Source: Bryum argenteum | Lineage: Eukaryota; Streptophyta; Bryopsida; Bryales; Bryaceae | Direction: 5' to 3' | DNA: 64,000 bases | Assembly (NCBI GenBank): GCA_037043015.1 | Contig: CM073329.1 | Span: 15,950,648 to 16,014,647 of the forward strand | Shown here: in pieces, positions 108 to 47,537 of the stretch | Numbering within the stretch: position 1 is the stretch's first letter | Layout of the letters: every line of letters begins with the position of its first letter | Translations under genes and position numbers: made by a program | Notes under the pieces: generated by a model | The model's database searches: none | Told to the model about the DNA's origin: nothing | The model's input: the letters and a program-made list of their open reading frames with translations, nothing else

Positions 108-111
108 TTAA

Positions 112-125
112 CCCCTGAGCGCCCC
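112..125 (+). repeat. Left terminal inverted repeat of the piggyBac element
   Basis: CCCCTGAGCGCCCC directly inside TTAA (108-111). It matches the reverse complement of 7713-7726 at all 14 positions, and similarity stops at position 15. Confidence 0.9.
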
Positions 126-1283
126 CTCCAAAAAGCCCGAAAATCAAGGTTTGCAGACCGAGCCAAGCTTATCGGGTGCCAATTCTGCAGAAATTGATTA
201 TTTTGAATTTCACCGTTGAGAAACATGAAGAACAGGGATGCGAAGGTGTGGGAAAAATTGGGATGGATTTCACCGCACGGATTTGGTTTCTATAATGGTC
301 AAACAATGGTTGACTTCTTACATTTGCTGAATTTTGAGGGGGCTCAAGGTTTTGAAAAATCTTCACAAATTCTGACATTATCCATTTTTGCTGAAATTTT
401 GGGATCAGAGAGCTAGTGTGGTATTGACTTACCCTACAAAAGTTCAAAATGGTTCCATGCTTCAAAGACTGTGCAACAGCTGCCCAAATATTACAGACGA
501 GACTTAGTCGGAAAGGACTGACCGGGTCAAGGCAGTTCAAGGTACCGCCTGCAACTGGCAGTACAACTGCCACGTAAGTGGTCCCGCCAAACCACTAGCA
601 ACTACCAATTCAGCTGAAGTGGGTACAGTTCCTCGACACACTGCTTACATGCAGTGAATTTCCACAAGGTCGAGCCAGGCTGGAAGTGGCAGTAAACAAG
701 GAGGGTTCGGAGCCACATCAGACACAAAGTGTCCAGATTGCAGAAACAGATCTGATGGCTTCATGATTATCGTCAAAACATCTAACAACGTTGAGAGGTC
801 TGTGCACCATGAACTTCCGCAAAAAGAACCCCGCATTCTCGTGCGACGACGGAGGCAGCGACCTAAACAAGTTCAGTGAATCCAGAGCCGTCGGATCCAG
901 GTTTATATAACTTAGTGTATCTAAGAAGAAACGATTGCAATTCCACAGTGTCGCACAGTTCATATGTGCCGAGCATCTTCAAAGAGCTCCCTACCCTGCA
1001 AAAACAATTCATCAAGATTAGTTTTGATCCTTGAGCTCGATTACAGCAAACATCAGAACAGCGAGTCAAAAGCGTATGCATCTGAACTGAAAATAGATAC
1101 CAGAATGCGTAGCAAGTGTCGGCAGGCTTATTGACCCTTCCTTGAAACCCTCCAGATTCAGTCTCTCTGTCCTCAACCACAAGTCAAACCCTCATGGTTT
1201 TTAGCAAGTGAATCCTTCTCTTCAATATTTAGTCATCATTCGACAAACACATGCAATGCTCTTCCATGCCGAATTTGGTTCAG
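126..1283. other. Left part of the piggyBac element, no recognised gene
   Basis: Contains only minus-strand open frames (for example 169-573 and 863-1180) without similarity I can name. It may be 3' untranslated or captured noncoding sequence lying downstream of the CCA1/LHY-like fragment. Confidence 0.4.
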
Positions 1284-1859
1284 TTAGTCCTCTTTCAACT
1301 CCAGAATAACGTCGAAGACTATACCTGGTGGTGGAGGTGAGAATTTTCGAGGTAATGTGTCGCGCTTGAAAAGAGCCTTGAAAGCGATCTGCCCTCGCTC
1401 AGTCACTTCCTTCCATTGCTCGCCATCGATAGATGTCGTCCTTGGCAATCGACATGAAAATGAACCACTACCTGGCTTCTCCTCATCTTTACAAACCGGA
1501 AGGAACTCGTTGAATGTGAACTGCTCCGGTATCCGAGTCTCTTCCCCATCCATTGAGCTTCTCCCAGTGTTATCCTGGGTGGATCTTTCGACGTTGCATG
1601 TGGCTTCGCCTTCGGATGAGCCGTCACTAGATCCCGACCTGTCGGTGGCCCCAGGCGCATTCTCGCATGCGGATGAGTTCGAGCTCGGTCCTCGTCTCTC
1701 ATTGCTACCTTGCGCTTGCGCATCCCCACCTTCGCTGCCACATGACTGCGATGCGTCGGTGGGAGTAGCTTCCTCGTCGTTGAACTTGCTGCCGATCTTG
1801 GTGAATTGACCAGATAGGTTGTTCGAGCCGCTGATCGAACGAATTAGCTCCAGCCGCAA
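1284..1859 (-). pseudogene. Captured C-terminal fragment of a CCA1/LHY-type clock MYB factor
   Basis: Seen: an open minus-strand frame of 191 aa, Ser/Glu/Asp-rich, ending in a block with ERGQIAFKALFKRD and LPRKFSPP just before the stop. Known: CCA1/LHY proteins have a conserved C-terminal block of the form GR.AF.ALFSR..LPQSFSPP, preceded by a Ser-rich stretch. The SANT/MYB DNA-binding domain at the other end of such proteins is absent. The frame starts where the CPSase-like fragment ends, so the two were probably joined inside the transposon. A protein from this frame could not bind DNA like CCA1/LHY. It could be expressed as part of a chimeric transcript. The family call rests on remembered motif similarity. 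The alternative is a related RVE-type protein. Confidence 0.65.
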
Positions 1860-2406
1860 CTACGTCTTTGACAAAGAAATCCTGGAGAGCCATCATCTCA
1901 ACAGGGCTTGTTTTCAAACCCCAGACCGCCTGTAAGGTAGCATGAGCACCTGCAATGGTAGTGATAATAGGTACCTTATAAGCAAGTGCCAATTGCCGCA
2001 ATTGTCTGCCATCTATCTGATCAAGAGCATCTCCAGAGCTCGTGATGATCATGAGCTGAATGCCTCCGTTGGTGATAGCGTCGGCAGCATGAGGACGTCC
2101 CTCATGAAGCTTCAATACTCTTTCCACCTTCACACCAGCCTTCTCTAAAGCACTAGCAGTGCCATCAATACACAAAATGGTGAACCCAAGCTCCTGGAAG
2201 CCCTTGGCGATCGGAATCACCTTCTCCTTCAACATATCGTTCATGCTGATGAACACCATTCCTGTAAGTGGCAGTCTCTGGTTCGCGGCGATCTGAGCTT
2301 TTGCGAACGCCTCGGGCGTAATTGCGTACTGGCAATTCATTAGACCAACGACTCCAAGTCGACGAGCAAGCTTCGTCGATGCATTCAAGGTCGGAAGCTG
2401 AAGCAT
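1860..2406 (-). pseudogene. Captured fragment of carbamoyl-phosphate synthase large subunit (MGS domain)
   Basis: Seen: the frame 2406-1705 (233 aa) reads through VGLMNCQYAI, AFAKAQIAA, VERVLKLHEGRPHAADAI, ITSSGDALDQIDGRQLR, ALAYKVPIITTIAGA and MALQDFF. Known: these are the order and wording of the CarB/CPSase large subunit C-terminus, covering the end of the second ATP-grasp half and the allosteric MGS-like domain. In intact proteins about 95 residues lie between the GLMNCQYAI and AFAKAQIAA blocks; here they are joined in frame. The ATP-grasp domains are missing, so it cannot be a working synthase. After MALQDFFVKDVV (about 1860) similarity stops and the frame runs on as a shadow over the CCA1/LHY-like piece. 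A plant CPSase acts in plastids in arginine and pyrimidine synthesis; this copy is transposon cargo. Confidence 0.8.
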
Positions 2407-2514
2407 TCTATCAGTATTCCCGTCCCAGCTTAGAAACTGCCAGGGCTATAACCGCGTGCTTTCACAATCTTCGGCTCATGTTTGTATATATCCGCCAGCA
2501 TCTTTGTAATATCC

Positions 2515-4827
2515 TCAAACACGGCCTCCACGCAGTGGTCGGGTCACACGTAAAGCATACATCTTTAGACTATGAACTTTTACAAAACAACTCCCTAGGC
2601 ACATGTGAGCACCCCCACATGTGGTACACCGATATTGAGTCTTCTTCTTGCACACGAGGCTCTGCCGCCTCAGGTTCAAGTGCCGTGAACTGAAATGAAG
2701 GGCTCGAGGGTGACGAAGACACGCCATTCTGCAAGTCGATGGAGCATCGAGCCACGAGGCAGTCAACGTCTCTGCAACTGCTTCGTGAAATAAGAGTCGT
2801 TGCCGATATACTGTCTCCCCGCGAGTAAGACGGTCATGCTTCAGAAGAACCCACGAGTTATTTAGCCAACAATCCACAACAAAAAACAAATGTTTATGCC
2901 ACCACTTGTGTGAGTGGAATTGCACAGAGTAGTCTGTGCGCATCTGGTCCACGATGTCCACTCCTCTCATGTTCGTTTGATACTCTATCTGTTGTGGAGT
3001 GGAGTCAATCGCCTCGCGGATACCGTTCACCCAACGTAGTGATCGTGCTCCTTCAGCCACCGGATCGGTTGACGTCGACAAGATGTACACCGGTTTCGAG
3101 TCATACCAGCATGTTGCGGCCATGTGGCGCTGAGCATGCATTCTCCACATCAAGGTTCCACGAGGATGGTTACCCTTCTTCTGCCCAAGTAAAGAAGTTG
3201 GCAGCCCAATCCGATTCTCACGGACAGTCCCTGTTGCCCATATGCTTCGGTGGTAGAGATCTTCGAATAGCTTTGGAGCAGTAAAAAAATTATCGCAGAC
3301 AACAGTGTGTCCTACACCATCGAGGCCCACGGTCAGCTCACGCACTACACGTTCTCCTTGACCAACGTCCGGAGTTCCACTGGCCCCTACATACGGTATA
3401 AGGTTGAAGATATACCGAGAAGGATTACATACAGCTGCAAAAAACTTGAACCCATATTTAGTAGGCTTAGCCGGCATGTACTGACGGAAACCTGAATAGT
3501 GTCCATGATATGCGACCATGATTTCATCACAAGTGATGTACTTGTCGGGGTTGTAAAGGGCCCGACTCTTGCTCACAAAATCGTCAATAAGCCAACGAAC
3601 TTTGGCTAACTTATCGTACCTTGGTGATTCCTTATCCGTCTCAATCGTTTCGTTGTTGACAAGATGGAGGCATCTCAACAAGCTCTCGAAACGATTTCGA
3701 GTGAAAACCCGAGGGATAACCGAGCATCGCAAGAACTCCTTGCGCTTCCAGTAGTCTCGTATCGTCGGCATCAACTTCACTCCCATTAGGATTGCAACAC
3801 CAAAGAATGCACGAATCTCCTTGGCTGAAGTTGGAACCCAGTGTGGTCCACCGTTTGTGTTCTGGCTACGGCCAGTCCCTTGTTGCGCTGCGTACAAGTT
3901 TGTCTGCAGAACAATCTCGCTCACTACACAGTCATCCAGAAAATGGTCGAAGAAAGAGATGGCAGGTTTCCGATCACGGGTCATACGAGCCCTCGGACCT
4001 GGCTGGAGTCCACGAAAGGTAGCACGATCGCCCAATAGTGTGGACTCCTGACATTGCCAATATCGATCATGGTATCTCGCTCGGAAATCCAGGGCATCTA
4101 AGTCTCCGTCCTCACTGTAGTCGCCAATCTCGTGTCGCAGCTCAACATCGCTATGCTCGGACTCAGTCTCACATTCTGAGAAATCAAGGGATGAGGCGTC
4201 ACCTTCGAAGTCGCGCCAGTCTGCCCTCCAATCATCATCGTCAGAATCAGAACTTCTCGCGGAAGATCCCACGTCGGGAGTTGTCGGCACCTCAGGTCGT
4301 TGGGTGGAGAAGACAGTCGGCCTTTGCTCTGGAGGGTTCCCGTAATGCGGCAGTACTGCATCCTCATCGAGCCGCTGGGTGGAGAAGACGGGCACCTCGC
4401 TCTCGCAGTCAAGAAGGTCATGTAGACGCGCTGAAGAGCTAGCTGGGGTGGCATTTTCAAGTAGCCCTTCACCTCGTCCAAGAATCCTGCAGTCAACAAC
4501 TCGCACCTTTTGACCTCCAATACTGCCACCAAAATTGACGAAGTAAAAAGCAACCCCATTCTCCTGCCATCGTTGTTGAGGCTCTCCCCGAAACTCTGAA
4601 ATGTTGCCCCAATCCGCTCGGTTCTGTGCAAGTAACTCCACTGGTACACACACAGTCGATGGAAGTAGCCCGTTGCTTGGCAAGCAGCCTTGCACTGCCA
4701 ATGCTCCCTGAAATGCTCCCGCCAGGCCTCTTATAGCCGCTGAACGTGTGAGGCTGCCAGTACCAGTGGAGCTGCGACAATCACAAATGCCACATGAATG
4801 CGGTAATTTGCATCTAAATATGCACAA
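2515..4827 (-). CDS. piggyBac-type transposase (DDE_Tnp_1_7), intact
   Basis: Cuts and inserts the element at TTAA sites. Seen: an uninterrupted 770-aa frame. Residues 190-250 are acidic (runs of D/E). The DDE core covers about 285-660. The catalytic aspartates are D434 in TCDEIMVAY, D512 in VVCDNFF and D624 (with D627) in RGVDIVDQ, the piggyBac D-D-D arrangement. A C-terminal Cys/His cluster (C726, C734, C737, H741, C743, C747, H752) matches the cysteine-rich domain that binds piggyBac ends. The usual family length is about 590-650 aa, so the first ~150-280 residues may be extra or an over-long start. M282, just before the core, is the next conspicuous start candidate. An upstream exon is possible. 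Nothing in the catalytic core looks broken, so the element may be autonomous. Confidence 0.92.
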   Translation of the reverse strand: MCIFRCKLPHSCGICDCRSSTGTGSLTRSAAIRGLAGAFQGALAVQGCLPSNGLLPSTVCVPVELLAQNRADWGNISEFRGEPQQRWQENGVAFYFVNFGGSIGGQKVRVVDCRILGRGEGLLENATPASSSARLHDLLDCESEVPVFSTQRLDEDAVLPHYGNPPEQRPTVFSTQRPEVPTTPDVGSSARSSDSDDDDWRADWRDFEGDASSLDFSECETESEHSDVELRHEIGDYSEDGDLDALDFRARYHDRYWQCQESTLLGDRATFRGLQPGPRARMTRDRKPAISFFDHFLDDCVVSEIVLQTNLYAAQQGTGRSQNTNGGPHWVPTSAKEIRAFFGVAILMGVKLMPTIRDYWKRKEFLRCSVIPRVFTRNRFESLLRCLHLVNNETIETDKESPRYDKLAKVRWLIDDFVSKSRALYNPDKYITCDEIMVAYHGHYSGFRQYMPAKPTKYGFKFFAAVCNPSRYIFNLIPYVGASGTPDVGQGERVVRELTVGLDGVGHTVVCDNFFTAPKLFEDLYHRSIWATGTVRENRIGLPTSLLGQKKGNHPRGTLMWRMHAQRHMAATCWYDSKPVYILSTSTDPVAEGARSLRWVNGIREAIDSTPQQIEYQTNMRGVDIVDQMRTDYSVQFHSHKWWHKHLFFVVDCWLNNSWVLLKHDRLTRGETVYRQRLLFHEAVAETLTASWLDAPSTCRMACLRHPRALHFSSRHLNLRRQSLVCKKKTQYRCTTCGGAHMCLGSCFVKVHSLKMYALRVTRPLRGGRV

Positions 4828-5554
4828 ACTATTCTTTTGGTTATAATTCTATGCAAATACGACATACGTGCAACTTTCACAACAGTATTGCATCACTGAT
4901 GGCCCATTGACTTTCCTAAACAGTAGATTCAGTTTTACTATTTTGACGTACTCTCTTACGATCACTAAGTAACGTGGGCGGACGGTTTCCAGTGTGGGTA
5001 GCGGGCGGGGACCTTCACTCAGACTCTCACCAACCGCAAATTCATCCATCTGTATTATTGCAGAGTGATTGCCATCACCACTGACGTCCAATCAATGCTC
5101 TAATGTTCGACGTCTCTCAGGTATTCACGACGAACAGAAACCAGATAGAAAGTGAGTCCTTGCCAGTTTCAGCAACTGAACTCATATTCTTCCAACACTG
5201 AACAAATTGCTGGAAAATTCCATTCTAAATAGCGAGATCACTCGAAGCAGTTGCTTGTCAAAATAGCTGTACCCTATGCCTGTCATGAATTGCTTGCTCC
5301 TTACAAACGTGAGGGAAGGATCAGAGAGAAGGATCCCATCCTAATGAGCAAGATCACAGACATACGAATGGGAATGAGTTCTCTGCAATCGAATACAGAA
5401 TAGTACTGAATTCTACGCTACTCCACATCCACGAGGAGCTATGTATAGTCTAGGAGCTAATTGCTATGCCTGTCATGGATCGTATGTATGGAAGAAGAGA
5501 GGAAGGATTTGCATTCTCAAGCTGGTTTGTGAATTCACGACGAACAGAAACCAG
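4828..5554. other. Transposon interior with a duplicated segment
   Basis: No complete gene seen. A stretch of about 40 bp at 5117-5160 (CACGACGAACAGAAACCAGA onward) recurs at 5531-5570. A second pair, TATGCCTGTCATG, occurs near 5275 and 5465. An internal duplication therefore separates two copies of the sequence that leads into the CGI-58-like exon. Confidence 0.5.
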
Positions 5555-5680
5555 ACAGAGAGTGAGTCCTGGTTTGTGGATTCTCTGGAGGAATGGCGGA
5601 GGGCGAAGAAACTGGACCGATTCATCTTGTTAGGGCATTCTCTTAGAGGATAAGTGGCAGCTCGATACGCCCTCAAGGTG
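5555..5680 (+). pseudogene. Captured CGI-58/ABHD5-like alpha/beta-hydrolase exon with a nonsense codon
   Basis: Seen on the plus strand: SWFVDSLEEWRRAKKLDR, then FILLGHSLRG, a TAA stop (5651-5653), then VAARYALK followed by a GTGATT donor-like site. Known: plant and animal CGI-58/ABHD4/ABHD5 proteins read WF.DS.EEWR...L..FILLGHS.GGYVAA.YALK at the nucleophile elbow, with an exon end after ALK. The GHS motif is kept; the GGY that should follow is replaced by RG-stop. Only this one exon is present, and it runs opposite to the transposase, so it cannot make a hydrolase. CGI-58 regulates lipid turnover; here it is dead cargo. Confidence 0.72.
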
Positions 5681-5721
5681 ATTGTCAAACTCAACCTACT
5701 TCTGTACTCCATTTTAAAAAA

Positions 5722-6255
5722 CTAGCTCCCTGAGAATAAGACGCATCCATCTTTGAAACTAACTGTGTGGCTGCGCAGCATCCTAAGCATGTCCAGCATC
5801 TCATCCTCGTGGGCGCAGCAGGATTTTCTGAGGAATCGGACCGGATCATTCAGTTCAGATCCACCTGGAGAGGCGCAGTTGCGAATTTCATGAACTCCTT
5901 GCGCATTCCAGTCGTGTAAGGCTCGATTGGAGGATAGATCTCTGTCCTCACGGAGGAATTCTGACACCAAGCTTCTCGAAACGCGCTGCCAAATTTGACC
6001 AGTTTGCGCTTGGTGAATTGACCAGTTTTTGGCGGGTTTGTTTATGGGCTTACCTGCCAACTTCGACACACCGGCGCTGACGATGATGTCCCAAGTGCGA
6101 ATTCGGGGAGTATGAAGCCTCCGCTCCCGCATGTCGCCTTCGACGTAGCCTATGCGGTGATCTTGGTGATGGCCGAATTTCAGGAGCGGTCCAGCCTGGC
6201 GGCATTGTCGCCACATCCTGTCCATCATGAGGATGGCAACCACGCCCTTGCCCAC
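5722..6255 (-). CDS. Open frame of unknown function inside the piggyBac element
   Basis: A 177-aa minus-strand frame overlapping the end of the AT-hook ORF in another frame. I recognise no domain. A segment near 5995-6035 (NWSIHQ, GKPINKPAK) shares a 17-bp identical stretch, CTTGGTGAATTGACCAG, with the CPSase/CCA1 junction near 1797-1813. The shared word may mark a common joint or repeat used during capture. It may be a frameshifted continuation of the AT-hook frame rather than a separate gene. Confidence 0.25.
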   Translation of the reverse strand: MGKGVVAILMMDRMWRQCRQAGPLLKFGHHQDHRIGYVEGDMRERRLHTPRIRTWDIIVSAGVSKLAGKPINKPAKNWSIHQAQTGQIWQRVSRSLVSEFLREDRDLSSNRALHDWNAQGVHEIRNCASPGGSELNDPVRFLRKSCCAHEDEMLDMLRMLRSHTVSFKDGCVLFSGS

Positions 6256-6658
6256 GGCCTAGTGGACGCCCGCGCGGCCGACCTCTGCTACGGGCTGGAT
6301 ACCCTCGCCTTCCTCGCGATCCTTCGATGTCTCCACATTCTGTTCCAATGACATCAACCTCGCCATCACTAGGAAGTCTGTTTGCTGCTGTTGGCTGAGA
6401 AGCGCGTCCACGCCTCCATCGTGATCCCCGACTCTGCCCGCGTCCACGTAAATCGAAATCGGCTCTACTATTATCCTCGACAATCACTATAGCCTCCCCA
6501 TTCGTGTCAGGGAGCTCGTTCAGGTCAAAATTGAACCTCGGTAGATTCCTACCCTGACTACCCCCGCATCGACCTCTGCCACGACCCCGTCCCCTGTCGT
6601 GGCAGCCCAAACTGCAAGTATCATTGATTTCTTGGCGCCCTTGCGAGCGCCCCGTCAT
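6050..6658 (-). CDS. RG-rich protein with DLNELP (EAR-type) and AT-hook-like motifs, in the transposon
   Basis: A 202-aa minus-strand frame. Seen: an RG repeat at residues 22-30, NFDLNELP at 43-50, then a basic Arg/Gly region and SRGRPRGRPLGRG at 124-136. Known: DLNxxP is an EAR repression motif that recruits TOPLESS-type co-repressors, and RGRP cores are AT-hook minor-groove binders. Together they would suit a nuclear repressor, but I cannot name a family and parts of the downstream frame look shifted. It lies upstream of the transposase on the same strand and could be a captured host fragment or an accessory protein of the element. Function is inference from motifs. Confidence 0.4.
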   Translation of the reverse strand: MTGRSQGRQEINDTCSLGCHDRGRGRGRGRCGGSQGRNLPRFNFDLNELPDTNGEAIVIVEDNSRADFDLRGRGQSRGSRWRRGRASQPTAANRLPSDGEVDVIGTECGDIEGSRGRRGYPARSRGRPRGRPLGRGQGRGCHPHDGQDVATMPPGWTAPEIRPSPRSPHRLRRRRHAGAEASYSPNSHLGHHRQRRCVEVGR

Positions 6659-6761
6659 CTGGACTTCTGGTGGACCCTGTCGTTTGCACTCGAGGACTGC
6701 TTCTTCGGTAAGGTGTGTAGCTTACTTGCCCTAAATTGCTCACATCTCCTCCTCGATGACG

Positions 6762-7175
6762 TCAGAGGACGCGATCTGCTGCAAAGAAGGCATTATCTGA
6801 TGCCGTACTTGGCCACCACCTCGTTCGTATGAAATCGTTCACGGCATGTGGAAGTCCGTCACGATGACCCTCAGGTAGCCGCTCATGCACTCTCAAAATC
6901 CGAAAAATTTGTCTGCGAAACAAATACCTCCACGATGCAGCACTTGGATCAACCGGCCACCAATGGCTCGACGATGGTTCTTTCAGCGACAGAAGGAAAT
7001 CCTCGTTGAAGCACAACTTGACCTTCCCAATCTGCTTCGGCGTTGCATTGTGCCGCTCACGAGCCCATTCCTCCAACACCGCATTCACCGTGTTGATCTC
7101 TTCACTGGATGCACGCACTTCGACCGTAGGGCAGCCCATTGTGTTCGCAGATTCTCCTTCTGTACTTGAGGCCAT
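6762..7175 (-). CDS. Unrecognised open frame at the promoter end of the piggyBac element
   Basis: A 137-aa frame starting MASSTEGESANTMG, the first long frame inside the right end in the direction of transposase transcription. It is mixed charged/aromatic with no motif I can name. It may be a first exon joined to the AT-hook frame by an intron near 6660-6760. I could not fix a donor/acceptor pair, so this stays a suggestion. Confidence 0.3.
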   Translation of the reverse strand: MASSTEGESANTMGCPTVEVRASSEEINTVNAVLEEWARERHNATPKQIGKVKLCFNEDFLLSLKEPSSSHWWPVDPSAASWRYLFRRQIFRILRVHERLPEGHRDGLPHAVNDFIRTRWWPSTASDNAFFAADRVL

Positions 7176-7712
7176 CCCGACAAGCGCCGTAGTCGCCTTC
7201 GTTTACAACTCTCCGACAACGTGGTCCTCCAGTAACCCCACTCCGCGAGTGCTTCAAGAGAATCCAAGTCTGCATGCACGTACAGCCCCAATGCGCAAGC
7301 GCCCACAAAGGCTCGATATCATCAAAGACGGTGGTGAGATCTGGCAACCTACTGTGCAAAACCTAAACTCACTCGCAGCAATTACGCGCGCATCACTCTC
7401 AAAGCCACAAGTACCATTGCTACACAACACTCGTCGTCTCACTTGGAGCTTGAAAGGCGTTCGCGCCAATCTTCCAACGGTAGCTGACTGGCAGTAGCCG
7501 GTAGCCTACCTGACAGATCTTCCACCAACACATGCGAAAAACCAGAAATCCACTCAATTTCGAGCTCGACAAGCCGCGACGTGGGCCACCACTACTACTA
7601 TTCATAAACCCTACCCTGGCCCTACATATGTACTTTTACAGGTACCCCATCAATCCAGATCCAGCTCCAATTTTGAGGCTCAAAGAATTCATGGCGGACA
7701 CATTAGTCCGCT

Positions 7713-7726
7713 GGGGCGCTCAGGGG
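7713..7726 (-). repeat. Right terminal inverted repeat of the piggyBac element
   Basis: GGGGCGCTCAGGGG directly before TTAA (7727-7730), the exact inverse of the left TIR. The two TTAA copies are the target-site duplication. Confidence 0.9.
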
Positions 7727-7730
7727 TTAA

Positions 7731-8866
7731 GGGCTAGAGTGTACTCATAGTTTCTAGATCTATCACAAATGCAATAAGAATGGACAAAAACAATAAGCAC
7801 TTTCAAGGTCTCATAGGAAGGTGTCCCAAGTCCAAGGGGGTAGTTTTATAGAGATGCAGGCCAAAGTCGTGTCCCTCTAAATACAAATGAGGACAACTAT
7901 ATCTAGACATTATTCTTACCGACCCGAAGGATTGGGTTGTTGAAACTTAAGTAGATTCACCACGGCTCCTTCTTGTCCAAAGTTGTTACCAAGGGTAATA
8001 CTTTTATCGTGTGCGCCTCCTTAGGGGTTTTCTATCACTGAGAGAAATTCCCATCATATATCTGCAGACACTAGAAGTTGCAAATGAAGACTCCAACACT
8101 ATATGCCAAAATTGCCACACGCCATTGCTGTGAAAATTAGATAATTTGAATGTGGGTGTTTTCCCTAAAACTGGAGTCATTAGTTTCTTGTGATAATTGA
8201 GGGCAAGGATTTCGAGCACTCCTTGGACAAGAGAGGTTCCTGTAAAGGTTCGGAAATCCCTTTGTCTTCTTTACACATTCATTACTTTGCATCATAAGTT
8301 GTTCCGACTTTGCTTGTGAATTGTGATGAGTTCTTGGTTTGGAACTTGATTTGGAGAAATCAGTAAGATCTTATATTGATACAAGCCTAACACTGCATAG
8401 TTCTAAACCTTTTGAGCTTTTGAAGGTATTGTTTACCTTTCTATGTATAGTAATGTATATTGTACATTGATGTTAGCTATGTCATACAGAAATCATTAAT
8501 ATACAATTGTTCAAATAGTAGACCCTAGTATGCACATTCGTCGTCGTTGTTGTATATCTCATGCTATACATTTATTATGACGAGGAAAGCATCAATTTGA
8601 ATAGAGCCTGTTGTGAATGCTTTGCAAACTGCTTCCTGAAACGATCCAGAAAGCAGGAAAAACTCTACTTAGTTGTACTCACCCTCCACAATCCTAGAAA
8701 CCTTGTGCTCATTTTATGTTGTCAAACCCACAGCAGAAAAAGAGCACATGGAAAAGAGGTACTAAGGAATGATCTCACAATTCAAACTTTTAAAACAGAT
8801 TTTCTTTTGACATGCCTCTTGTATTCATGGTTGTGTTCTTGAAAATACGTCATGAAGATATCCTCC

Positions 8867-35317: not shown

Positions 35318-36050
35318 GAGCACGTTTCTTGTAAAGCTCGACAAGAGGCCTCAACAGCAACATTTGTGAAAAAGATGCGAGTTTAGCGTTCGCTACATCG
35401 TTGAAGATCTACATATTTAGAGAGACTTTTTTCCTAGGGTTTCAAGTAGGTAGAGAAGCTTTGAGAGGTATTTCACTGAAAGCCCATTATCATATTGCCG
35501 CATGTAAAGAGGTGATAATTGCAATGTTTGGAATCATGGACGAAAAACTCTGTATGAAGCAATAGATTCTAAATTCGTTTCCATTTTGTACACATCCGTT
35601 GATCTAGAGCAGTGAAGAATTTTAAGTGCAGACACTTTCAACTCATAATGTTTCGCAGTCAGCTTCACATATTCGATCCTGAATCTTGAAACAGTCAAAG
35701 ATCATGAACGAACCTGAGAAAGTAGCCTCTGGGTCCTACTTGTCTGATACAAAATCACAACAAGCTGCATTAGCTCTTATTTACACGCACTGAATGCGCG
35801 GATGGAAGCCTGACACTATCCATCTGCTGCCTGTCTTGTCTGTACATACCATTCAACGTCAAACTTGAAGGAGAAGCTTGTACATTTTCTTCTTTCCAGT
35901 GCTGTCCAAGCAACATCGTCTGTATCAATACTTTCTTCCATATAAAAGGGAACTCCAGATCAATATCAGCTGCAGAGTTGAACCAATCTCTAGACTCTGA
36001 GTTACTTTGCATTGATTAGAACATCAGCGAGAGTTTGGCGACCAGAGAAC
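35318..36050. other. Spacer between the F-box gene and the next ORF
   Basis: No coding frame supported. TATAAAAGG at 35940-35948, about 105 bp upstream of the next ATG, is a plausible TATA box for it. Confidence 0.45.
35940..35948 (+). promoter_or_regulatory. Candidate TATA box of the 36051 gene
   Basis: TATAAAAGG about 105 bp before the chosen start codon; a canonical TATA sequence at a plausible distance. Confidence 0.4.
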
Positions 36051-36575
36051 ATGAGGAGGGAGGGGCGAGTGCGAGGAGAGCCCAGCAGCAAGTCCAGGAA
36101 GTTGGGCCAATCCAAGTCTTGTAGAGACATGGACTACAAACGCATGAAGCGGCGCGGCAGGCACAAGCGATTCGCTGTGGACGTGCTCACCAACCCTTCG
36201 CTCGCTGAATTTTGCCTTCAGGCACCACCGCCAGTTTCTTTTTTGGATCATGATTACGAGCTGCATGAGGAAGCCGTGGAGGTGACGAGCTCCATTGTTA
36301 CTTTGATTGAAGCTGCGCTTGCGAGCGATGATGAGACAATGGCCACGTCTTGCACTTCAGCAGATAATCATCCTGCCACGGAAGAGGCACCCCACATAGA
36401 GTGGGAAACCTTCAAGAGCGCAAGCTTGTCCATGACGCAACTCGCTAGAGAGTGGGGATCCGAGGAAAGCTGGTCGGGTGTTGATTTCGATGAACTCTTA
36501 GAACTGGACAGCTCCGAGCATGAGGATGATGACTGGTCCATAGTATCACATGAAGCTGGTGATGAATACTTGTAA
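36051..36575 (+). CDS. Small acidic-tailed protein with ATG8-interacting-type motifs, paralogue 1
   Basis: A 174-aa intronless frame. The start is set at the ATG of MRREGRV because the paralogue at 47031 begins MRRERGK; an upstream in-frame ATG (36012) is not conserved. Layout: basic N-terminus (SSKSRKLGQSK, KRMKRRGRHKR), helix TSSIVTLIEAALASDDETM (about 80-100), then an acidic C-terminus with EESWSGVDF and HEDDDWSIV. The W-x-x-V cores preceded by acidic residues (final W about 162) match the AIM/LIR pattern that binds ATG8 in selective autophagy. The basic N-terminus could be a nuclear or nucleic-acid binding signal. No named family recognised; the autophagy role is inference from a short motif. 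Confidence 0.75.
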   Translation: MRREGRVRGEPSSKSRKLGQSKSCRDMDYKRMKRRGRHKRFAVDVLTNPSLAEFCLQAPPPVSFLDHDYELHEEAVEVTSSIVTLIEAALASDDETMATSCTSADNHPATEEAPHIEWETFKSASLSMTQLAREWGSEESWSGVDFDELLELDSSEHEDDDWSIVSHEAGDEYL

Positions 36576-46813: not shown

Positions 46814-47030
46814 GGCTCAATCCTCATTTTGTCTCGAATTATTGACTTAGTTTACAATCTCGTATTAAGATCGAAGTAGTCCGATTCCACGGCAGTTCTG
46901 ATTATACGCAAAACTTGCTCTGTTGCTTGTAAGATTGAATAAGACTAGTAGAAGTATTGTTGATCAACCACTGGCTTTGCATTGTCTGTTTGAAGATCGA
47001 ACTTTTGTGATTGAAGAGCAGGGATTCGGC

Positions 47031-47537
47031 ATGAGGAGGGAGCGAGGGAAGTCCTCGAGTAAGAGCCGACGTTGCAAATCTCGCAAAGCTGTTCCCAAGC
47101 GTCTTGGCTCAAACAAGAGGATCATTGCCGACGATTCCGCTCTTCTGAACTTTAAGGAGGAGTCTGTGGAGCTTGAACATGAGGCTGTTGTTGATTCGGG
47201 GCATTTGATGGTTCCTACTGTGAATAGCCTGATCGAAATGGCCCTCACCGAAAGTTCTGAGGATACGATGTCCATTCGTACGGCCAGCGACTCGATGATC
47301 GTTGGAGCGGAACTTGACATTCCAGCCATTGAAGAGGCGTTTCACAAACATTTGGGAATCTTCGAAAACGCAGTGGAAGGCGATAACTTCGTCGAGACTC
47401 AGTTTACTAGAAAGTGGGGAGCCGTGCTCAGCGAGGAGAGCTGGTCGGATGTCGAATTCGTGGAATTCTCTGACCTAGAGGAGGAGGAAGAGGACGATGA
47501 TGACTGGTTCGTTGTACTCGATGAGGATCATGGGTGA
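47031..47537 (+). CDS. Small acidic-tailed protein with ATG8-interacting-type motifs, paralogue 2
   Basis: A 168-aa intronless frame, paralogue of the gene at 36051. The start MRRERGKSSSKSRR was chosen by conservation; the frame is open a further 108 bp upstream. Layout as in paralogue 1: basic N-terminus, helix TVNSLIEMALTESSEDTM, conserved FTRKWG...EESWSDVEF, and an acidic run EEEEEDDDDWFVVLDEDHG. The end is an almost ideal AIM/LIR: four Asp, then W159, two residues, Val. The first candidate motif (EESWSDV) is also kept between paralogues. The two differ over most of the middle, so the retained motifs stand out. It probably arose by duplication together with the surrounding repeats. Binding to ATG8 is inference. 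Confidence 0.75.
   Translation: MRRERGKSSSKSRRCKSRKAVPKRLGSNKRIIADDSALLNFKEESVELEHEAVVDSGHLMVPTVNSLIEMALTESSEDTMSIRTASDSMIVGAELDIPAIEEAFHKHLGIFENAVEGDNFVETQFTRKWGAVLSEESWSDVEFVEFSDLEEEEEDDDDWFVVLDEDHG

Follow-up and report, generated by a model that had tools for sequence, protein, structure and literature searches.

We describe here a piggyBac transposable element of the moss Bryum argenteum that carries between its termini a layered mosaic of DNA from other parts of the moss genome. The element occupies positions 112-7726 (7,615 bp) of a 64,000-nucleotide stretch of contig CM073329.1 (C9:15950648-16014647), which is referred to below as the window and supplies all positions given without a contig name. 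The genome searched consists of 258.8 Mb in 25 contigs, and only the best candidates were scored in whole-genome searches. Collectively, the sequences in the element that can be assigned as captured amount to 2,760 of the 7,615 bp (about 36%) and derive from at least nine donor loci, seven of which are genes or their near surroundings. A preliminary description of this DNA, made from the sequence alone, had proposed gene capture by a plant piggyBac, and that proposal is now strongly supported: the donor edges are sharp, and the pieces are fragments for which fuller loci exist elsewhere in the genome. We regard this Pack-piggyBac element in a moss, with its layered donors, as real and well documented.

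The element is bordered by TTAA target-site duplications at 108-111 and 7727-7730, recognized by reading of the sequence and by a repeat finder, and ends in perfect terminal inverted repeats (TIRs) of 14 bp at 112-125 (+) and 7713-7726 (-), which were found by the repeat finder and by the family census described below; duplications and repeats are thus as the preliminary description had given them. The repeat finder itself returns a 19-nt pair (107-125 and 7713-7731), as opposed to the 14-bp TIR proper, since the TTAA palindrome and one further flanking base are matched as well. Terminal inverted repeats of piggyBac elements typically start with CCC, and the sequence CCCCTGAGCGCCCC, present at both ends, does so; the TTAA duplications are likewise those of the piggyBac superfamily. 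The left terminal part (112-799, +) is taken as native from its sharing with other family members: 112-321 or 112-333 is common to miniature inverted-repeat transposable elements (MITEs), 112-602 is common to an element of 748 bp, and 112-539 matches elements of 666 and 676 bp at 76-80%, while 603-799 is found in a derivative on contig C5 only and is assumed to be native. The right terminal part (7046-7726, +) is common to the C5 derivative, with 7478-7726 present also in the 748-bp element and 7685-7726 in the MITEs.

The captured DNA forms two blocks, block 1 at 800-2529 and block 2 at 4908-6025. Donors were mapped by searching the genome with pieces of the element and then by local BLAST against the fetched loci. 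The donor matches (E-values down to 1.7e-253) lie on five contigs (C2, C3, C4, C9 and C11), and by BLAST the identity is lowest, at 85%, for a gapped C3 piece and highest, at 98.9%, for a proline iminopeptidase piece. Block 1 begins with pieces of a gene for a PP2A B56 regulatory subunit (800-874, -; donor on C11), of which 800-818 is exact over 19 bp and 828-874 matches at 98%. A 17-bp exact match to a Ycf20-like (DUF565) gene (878-894, +) follows, and is assigned tentatively in view of its shortness. Next come a piece of C4:27534218-27534621 to which no gene is assigned (922-1324, +; 94%), a piece of a CCA1/LHY-type MYB gene from C2:25.35 Mb (1324-1852, -; 96.8% over 529 bp, with its exact edge at about 1843) and two pieces of a gene for the CPSase large subunit from C9:5.77 Mb (1842-2376, -; 1842-2312 and 2310-2376). 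The block is completed by a longer piece of the Ycf20-like gene from C3:22.88 Mb (2371-2490, +) and by the second half of the B56 piece (2492-2529, -). Block 2 begins with a piece of C3:16722468-16722979 (4908-5147, -; 85-93% with gaps), again with no gene assigned, although a GH17 gene is near this donor locus at C3:16.72 Mb. It continues with the 5' side of a gene for an FAD-dependent oxidoreductase (DAO) from C11:1.08 Mb (5166-5528, -; 86-88%), an exact 23-bp repeat of the preceding C3 piece (5533-5555, -), two exon parts with a predicted intron of a CGI-58-like alpha/beta hydrolase gene from C3:10.98 Mb (5555-5892, +), and a 5' exon piece of a proline iminopeptidase gene from C2:3.87 Mb (5903-5992, -). 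A 17-bp exact match to the CCA1/LHY gene (6009-6025, -), equal to 1797-1813, is tentatively placed at its end.

The identities of the donors were established from open reading frames (ORFs) and matches to Pfam, NCBIfam and PDB in the case of the MYB (886 codons), CPSase (514 codons) and B56 (430 codons) genes, and from matches to the same collections for the DUF565, abhydrolase, proline iminopeptidase and DAO genes. Pfam calls the hydrolase donor an alpha/beta hydrolase; its CGI-58 name, which was also the label in the preliminary description, and the name Ycf20 for the DUF565 donor are assumptions on our part. The best named protein relatives of the CCA1/LHY donor gene are from Ceratodon purpureus (59%) and Physcomitrium patens (52%). 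The earlier observation that pieces of at least three unrelated host genes lie in the element in both orientations is borne out by the CCA1/LHY, CPSase and CGI-58-like pieces, all with donors elsewhere in the genome. Relative to its donor, the CCA1/LHY piece exhibits 14 differences (9 synonymous and 5 not) in 518 of its 529 bp, and the CPSase piece 14 differences (7 synonymous and 7 not) in 533 bp, with no stop codons in either. Such numbers fit, but do not prove, a history in which the donor has been constrained and the copy unconstrained.

The order of the pieces allows some of the history of capture to be read. In the B56 donor, 828-874 and 2492-2529 are adjacent save for one base (positions 1501 and 1499 of the donor locus L042), and therefore 875-2491 entered an older B56 piece. 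Directly within the two B56 halves lie the Ycf20-like pieces, the tentative one of 17 bp on the left and one of 120 bp on the right, which keep the order and orientation of the donor; the chain of C4, CCA1/LHY and CPSase pieces is innermost, between them. In block 2, the oxidoreductase piece is flanked by a 38-bp direct repeat (5123-5160 and 5533-5570) that, as read by eye, spans the join between the C3 and CGI-58-like pieces, which suggests that the oxidoreductase piece is a later insertion into an existing join. These arrangements lead us to infer three capture steps for block 1, or two should the 17-bp match be due to chance, and two for block 2. The donor edges are sharp to the base, some of them with overlaps of 1-6 bp. 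Among 12 junctions, a number that includes two deletions within one donor, the BLAST coordinates overlap at six, by 1, 1, 1, 3, 6 and 11 bp, of which the largest, between the CCA1/LHY and CPSase pieces, shrinks to 2 bp on exact matching; at the remaining six there are 1-27 unassigned bases.

At least part of the captured DNA exists at a second site in the genome. An element of 1,813 bp between TTAAs on another contig (C5:1724765-1726585) is composed of 112-1245 and 7046-7726, which overlap by 2 bp where they meet; it differs from the window copy at 13 positions in the shared part, has unlike flanks, and carries the captured sequence 800-1245. Its captured sequence breaks off within the C4 piece, which runs on without interruption in the donor and in the window, and the C5 element is therefore a deletion derivative. 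Sixteen substitutions could be scored in 922-1245 against the C4 donor, and 15 of them are common to both copies, none is confined to the window and one to C5; capture therefore took place well before the window and C5 copies separated. Occurrence at the second site suggests that the captured DNA has moved with the element.

Other members of the family were sought through their ends. The genome contains 199 occurrences of the TTAA plus TIR pattern (18 bases, at most one mismatch), 100 in forward and 99 in reverse orientation, and none of the reversed control; with up to two mismatches there are 101 left and 96 right family ends, again with none in the control. Pairing took in 94 of the 100 left ends listed and 94 of the 96 right ends, leaving six left and two right ends unpaired, and gave 86 MITEs of 246-264 bp (71 of them exactly 259 bp) plus eight longer elements of 531, 666, 676, 748, 884, 886, 1,813 and 7,615 bp. 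The last of these is the single full copy among the paired members, and no other full copy of the transposase DNA (2440-4950) was found among the genome matches. The 886-bp member (C2:20448878-20449771, L051) has an AT-rich insertion of ~620 bp inside an otherwise MITE-like element, and no gene was recognized by eye in this member.

The transposase of the element is predicted from a 770-codon ORF (2515-4827, -) that covers Pfam DDE_Tnp_1_7 almost in full (profile positions 3-349 of 349, E=1.4e-77), matches the solved piggyBac transposase 6x67 (E=3.4e-37) and could be aligned to piggyBat as well. The catalytic aspartates of piggyBac are D268, D346 and D447 (PMC7351741). In the alignment to 6x67 the ORF has D residues at TIDE/TCDE, CDN and GVD. 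We take these three residues to be the equivalents of D268, D346 and D447. A cysteine cluster at codons 726-752 aligns with the C terminus of piggyBat, so that the C-terminal cysteine-rich domain is also represented. The stop codon (2515-2517) is supplied by captured B56 sequence, and no ATG occurs in frame before codon 282, just ahead of the catalytic domain.

What lies upstream of this ORF is best understood by comparison with L064 (C6:14697972-14703257), an element of 5,278 bp that, like the window element, has TTAAs, 14-bp TIRs (in L064, CCCCTCAAGGCCCA) and an ORF A-like frame ahead of its transposase. The L064 transposase is 46% identical in amino acids over residues 45-761 of the window transposase, and it differs in being encoded in an uninterrupted frame of 1,187 codons that also holds the motif of ORF B, with no extra block between the motif and the transposase. 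In the window, ORF A (6762-7175, -) represents an N-terminal ORF or exon that is native to piggyBac elements of mosses, as judged by comparison with L064 and with another locus, L052 (E=1.7e-6, z 9.4, for the latter), and has no Pfam family at the cut-off. ORF B (6050-6658, -) is taken as a native part of the transposase gene because of its position and a 24-residue motif, in frame with the transposase in the related element, that is present in L064 (E 9e-5) and L065 (E 6e-4); on its own, ORF B had no significant match elsewhere (a single one, E=0.41), and its scores in comparison with the ORFs of L052 did not exceed those of shuffled sequences (z -0.6 and 1.2). The distance from the B motif to transposase residue 45 is 1,441 bp in the window, 323 bp when block 2 is subtracted, and 342 bp in L064. 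This agreement in length and the single frame of L064 place block 2 inside the transposase gene, where it separates ORFs A and B from the DDE ORF. The intact transposase of the preliminary description is therefore correct for the catalytic ORF, with its 770 codons and DDE domain, but not for the whole gene, whose N-terminal part has been split off; nor is the claim that the element is autonomous supported, given the interruption relative to L064. Moth piggyBac transposes significantly less well when its N-terminal disordered region is deleted, and excision suffers most (PMC9499001). It seems rather improbable that block 2 is spliced as an intron, so that the element makes transposase and is a self-mobilizing shuffler of genes with its own cargo, and that, as the repeated nested filling would show, piggyBac in mosses can undergo templated repair again and again despite its seamless excision.

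Two further points concern the same region. The stretch 5993-7477 was considered as additional captured host DNA and was rejected, since ORFs A and B proved to be native to piggyBac; it has no DNA match in the genome outside the C5 derivative. Protein searches that scored only the candidates sharing most words returned four relatives for the window transposase and three for that of L064; in each set two are named proteins from animals, the remaining two and one, respectively, are unnamed, and neither set includes a named plant protein.

We consider it very probable that the captured blocks are the result of internal breaks or gaps in a moss piggyBac element that were filled with copied genomic DNA through template-switching repair synthesis. 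The repair synthesis would draw on templates at other genomic loci and pass from one template to another; the candidate pathway is a synthesis-dependent or polymerase-theta-like filler repair. Several rounds of such repair might have taken place, each later break falling within earlier filler, after which an internally deleted copy would have reached another contig, probably by the action of transposase on the shared ends. The filler could in principle have been processed RNA, as the CPSase, oxidoreductase and C3 pieces are without 84-275 bp that their donors hold, but we give this explanation very little credence. The 273 bp missing from the CPSase piece are in-frame protein-coding sequence in the donor, the oxidoreductase gap is without GT-AG edges, and the gap in the C3 piece corresponds to a 275-bp insertion in the donor (L025:1226-1500) whose ends are inverted, which is flanked by a direct repeat of 12 bp, and which probably entered the donor after capture. 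Moreover, the CGI-58-like piece keeps a predicted intron, starting at 5678, with GT...AG edges that are also present in the donor. The retained intron and the CPSase coding gap indicate that DNA was captured and not cDNA, an origin that they refute for these two pieces; by their sequence the gaps read as deletions or donor insertions and not as the products of splicing. It is also quite unlikely that the blocks are other gene-carrying transposons inserted into the piggyBac element. Helitrons (PMC6431247) and Pack-MULEs (PMC8903248) are known to catch genes, but the CCA1/LHY, CPSase and C4 pieces, which are among the longer ones, were found only in their donors, in the window element and, for C4, in the derivative. 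No inverted pair among the 18 listed joins the edges of a block, and this, with the sharp donor edges, also means that the nested insertions with their own termini named in the preliminary description as contrary evidence did not appear. Helitrons have a 5' TC and a 3' CTRR with a hairpin, and make no target duplication; as read by eye, the block edges are unlike Helitron starts or ends, and the element as a whole has TTAA duplications and TIRs. That the assembly has joined unrelated reads, as the existence of a single full copy might suggest, is scarcely conceivable: the captured pieces are 1-15% off their donors, which misplaced reads from those donors would not be; a portion of block 1 is present again in the C5 derivative, along with changes common to both copies; and TIRs and TTAAs frame the whole element.

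A more serious question is whether capture was coupled to transposase, either through interrupted repair of excision gaps or through a switch of template at a stalled replication fork and subsequent transposition (FoSTeST-like), a possibility that we consider the less likely one. Intermediate-length elements and MITEs are usual products of interrupted gap repair, and the family has members of both kinds (531-1813 bp and 86 MITEs), although at least one member, that of 886 bp, is long through an inner insertion. The occurrence of captured DNA in the derivative, at another genomic site bordered by TTAA and by unlike flanks, points in the same direction, as does the location of eight of the nine donors on contigs other than C9, unlike the cis bias described for single-copy Pack-TIRs of animals (PMC8277862). 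However, piggyBac excision is described as seamless and repairable without DNA synthesis (PMC7351741), and the genome matches place these captured sequences in a single source element and its derivative; the other members, few of whose interiors were read, may hold captures of their own. Since a piggyBac excision site requires no synthesis for its repair, excision gaps are no likelier to have set off the filling than are breaks of another origin or trouble at the replication fork. Several considerations weigh against the template-switching repair that we favor. The route of capture from excision gaps is not obviously open to piggyBac, and unrelated breaks may be needed. The microhomology at junctions proves little, and a script that required exact matches found overlap at only one of the 12 junctions (2 bp, CCA1/LHY to CPSase), a count due in part to its stopping at point mismatches. 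The two 17-bp pieces (E 3e-4 and 0.008 within the fetched loci) could be chance matches, and the true donor of the oxidoreductase piece, which is only 86-88% alike, may be another copy.

Capture of this type in plants is known for the MULE, CACTA, hAT, Harbinger-PIF and Mariner superfamilies (PMC8903248). The plant Pack-TYPE elements described there resemble the window element in carrying fragments of coding genes between TIRs, but they are defined as non-autonomous and belong to superfamilies other than piggyBac; the window element retains a transposase ORF, albeit from a split gene, and its host is a moss. For the Pack-TIRs of animals, gap filling with template switching has been proposed (Tan et al. 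2021, PMC8277862), and the account given there likewise describes non-transposon sequence within TIR elements, identifiable parental loci and microhomology at breakpoints. Those cases were required to match the parental copy within 80-120% of its length, whereas the window element has at least nine donors in nested order and retains a transposase ORF. With both groups it shares host-gene fragments between TIRs and identifiable parental loci. Teratorn, a piggyBac-like transposon fused to a herpesvirus in fish, also carries foreign cargo (PMC6431247, PMC10175614), but its cargo, as described, is a viral genome in a giant element and not a mosaic of short host-gene pieces.

Gene capture by a plant piggyBac appears not to have been reported in the open-access literature searched, a body apart from subscription papers, preprints and supplements, and the term "Pack-piggyBac" is absent from it, although further papers in it, such as PMC6710886, contain terms for both piggyBac and transduplication. 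The name piggyBac does not occur in the main text of PMC8903248, PMC13317346 or PMC8277862 (for the last, the text apart from figures and supplements), mosses are not mentioned in the main text of PMC8903248, a review of land-plant transposons (PMC9033089) makes no mention of piggyBac, and a paper on the moss Niphotrichum contains "piggybacking" only. The present case extends the gene capture documented in plants for MULE, CACTA, Helitron and other elements to a superfamily whose excision sites can be closed without synthesis (PMC7351741), and it helps to tell capture in the course of transposition apart from capture by ordinary repair of breaks. The donor layers are legible enough for the order of repair events to be inferred, and very young piggyBac elements are placed in a land plant. 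Mosses are laboratory organisms, in which templated repair is directly testable.

The preliminary description had considered piggyBac to be rare in plants, but this is not true of the moss genome analyzed here, which has several piggyBac groups. L066 (C2:424984-430687) and L067 (C2:490991-496698) are 99.7% identical over 5.7 kb, with one mismatch and 10 gap openings, and piggyBac has therefore been recently active in this moss; their transposase matches are spread over more than one frame. These two copies belong to another piggyBac group, an abundant one, recognized from 573 TTAA plus TIR matches (at most one mismatch, two TIR variants), and among the 100 matches listed there are 37 pairs, 13 of them of 5,692-5,708 bp and 20 of MITE size (260-265 bp). 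In the related TIR group, no transposase match was obtained for an 11-kb TIR pair or for a 1-kb element, and two ORFs of the latter had no Pfam match. The locus L052 (L052:131-4222, C10:3739630-3743721), a further relative of piggyBac, has a 277-codon ORF A-like frame followed by a transposase frame of 1,077 codons with 37% identity, and no TTAA-anchored TIR pair (at most three mismatches in 14) was found within the 8.5 kb examined. The family of ORF A proteins is large, with at least 150 genome matches at E<=0.1 (the best 150 of 304 candidates, including ORF A itself and the C5 derivative), and might perhaps represent an N-terminal module of moss transposons. Elsewhere in the window, similar small ORFs at 36012-36575 and 46923-47537, ~11 kb apart and sharing short motifs when compared by eye, are perhaps the result of a local gene duplication.

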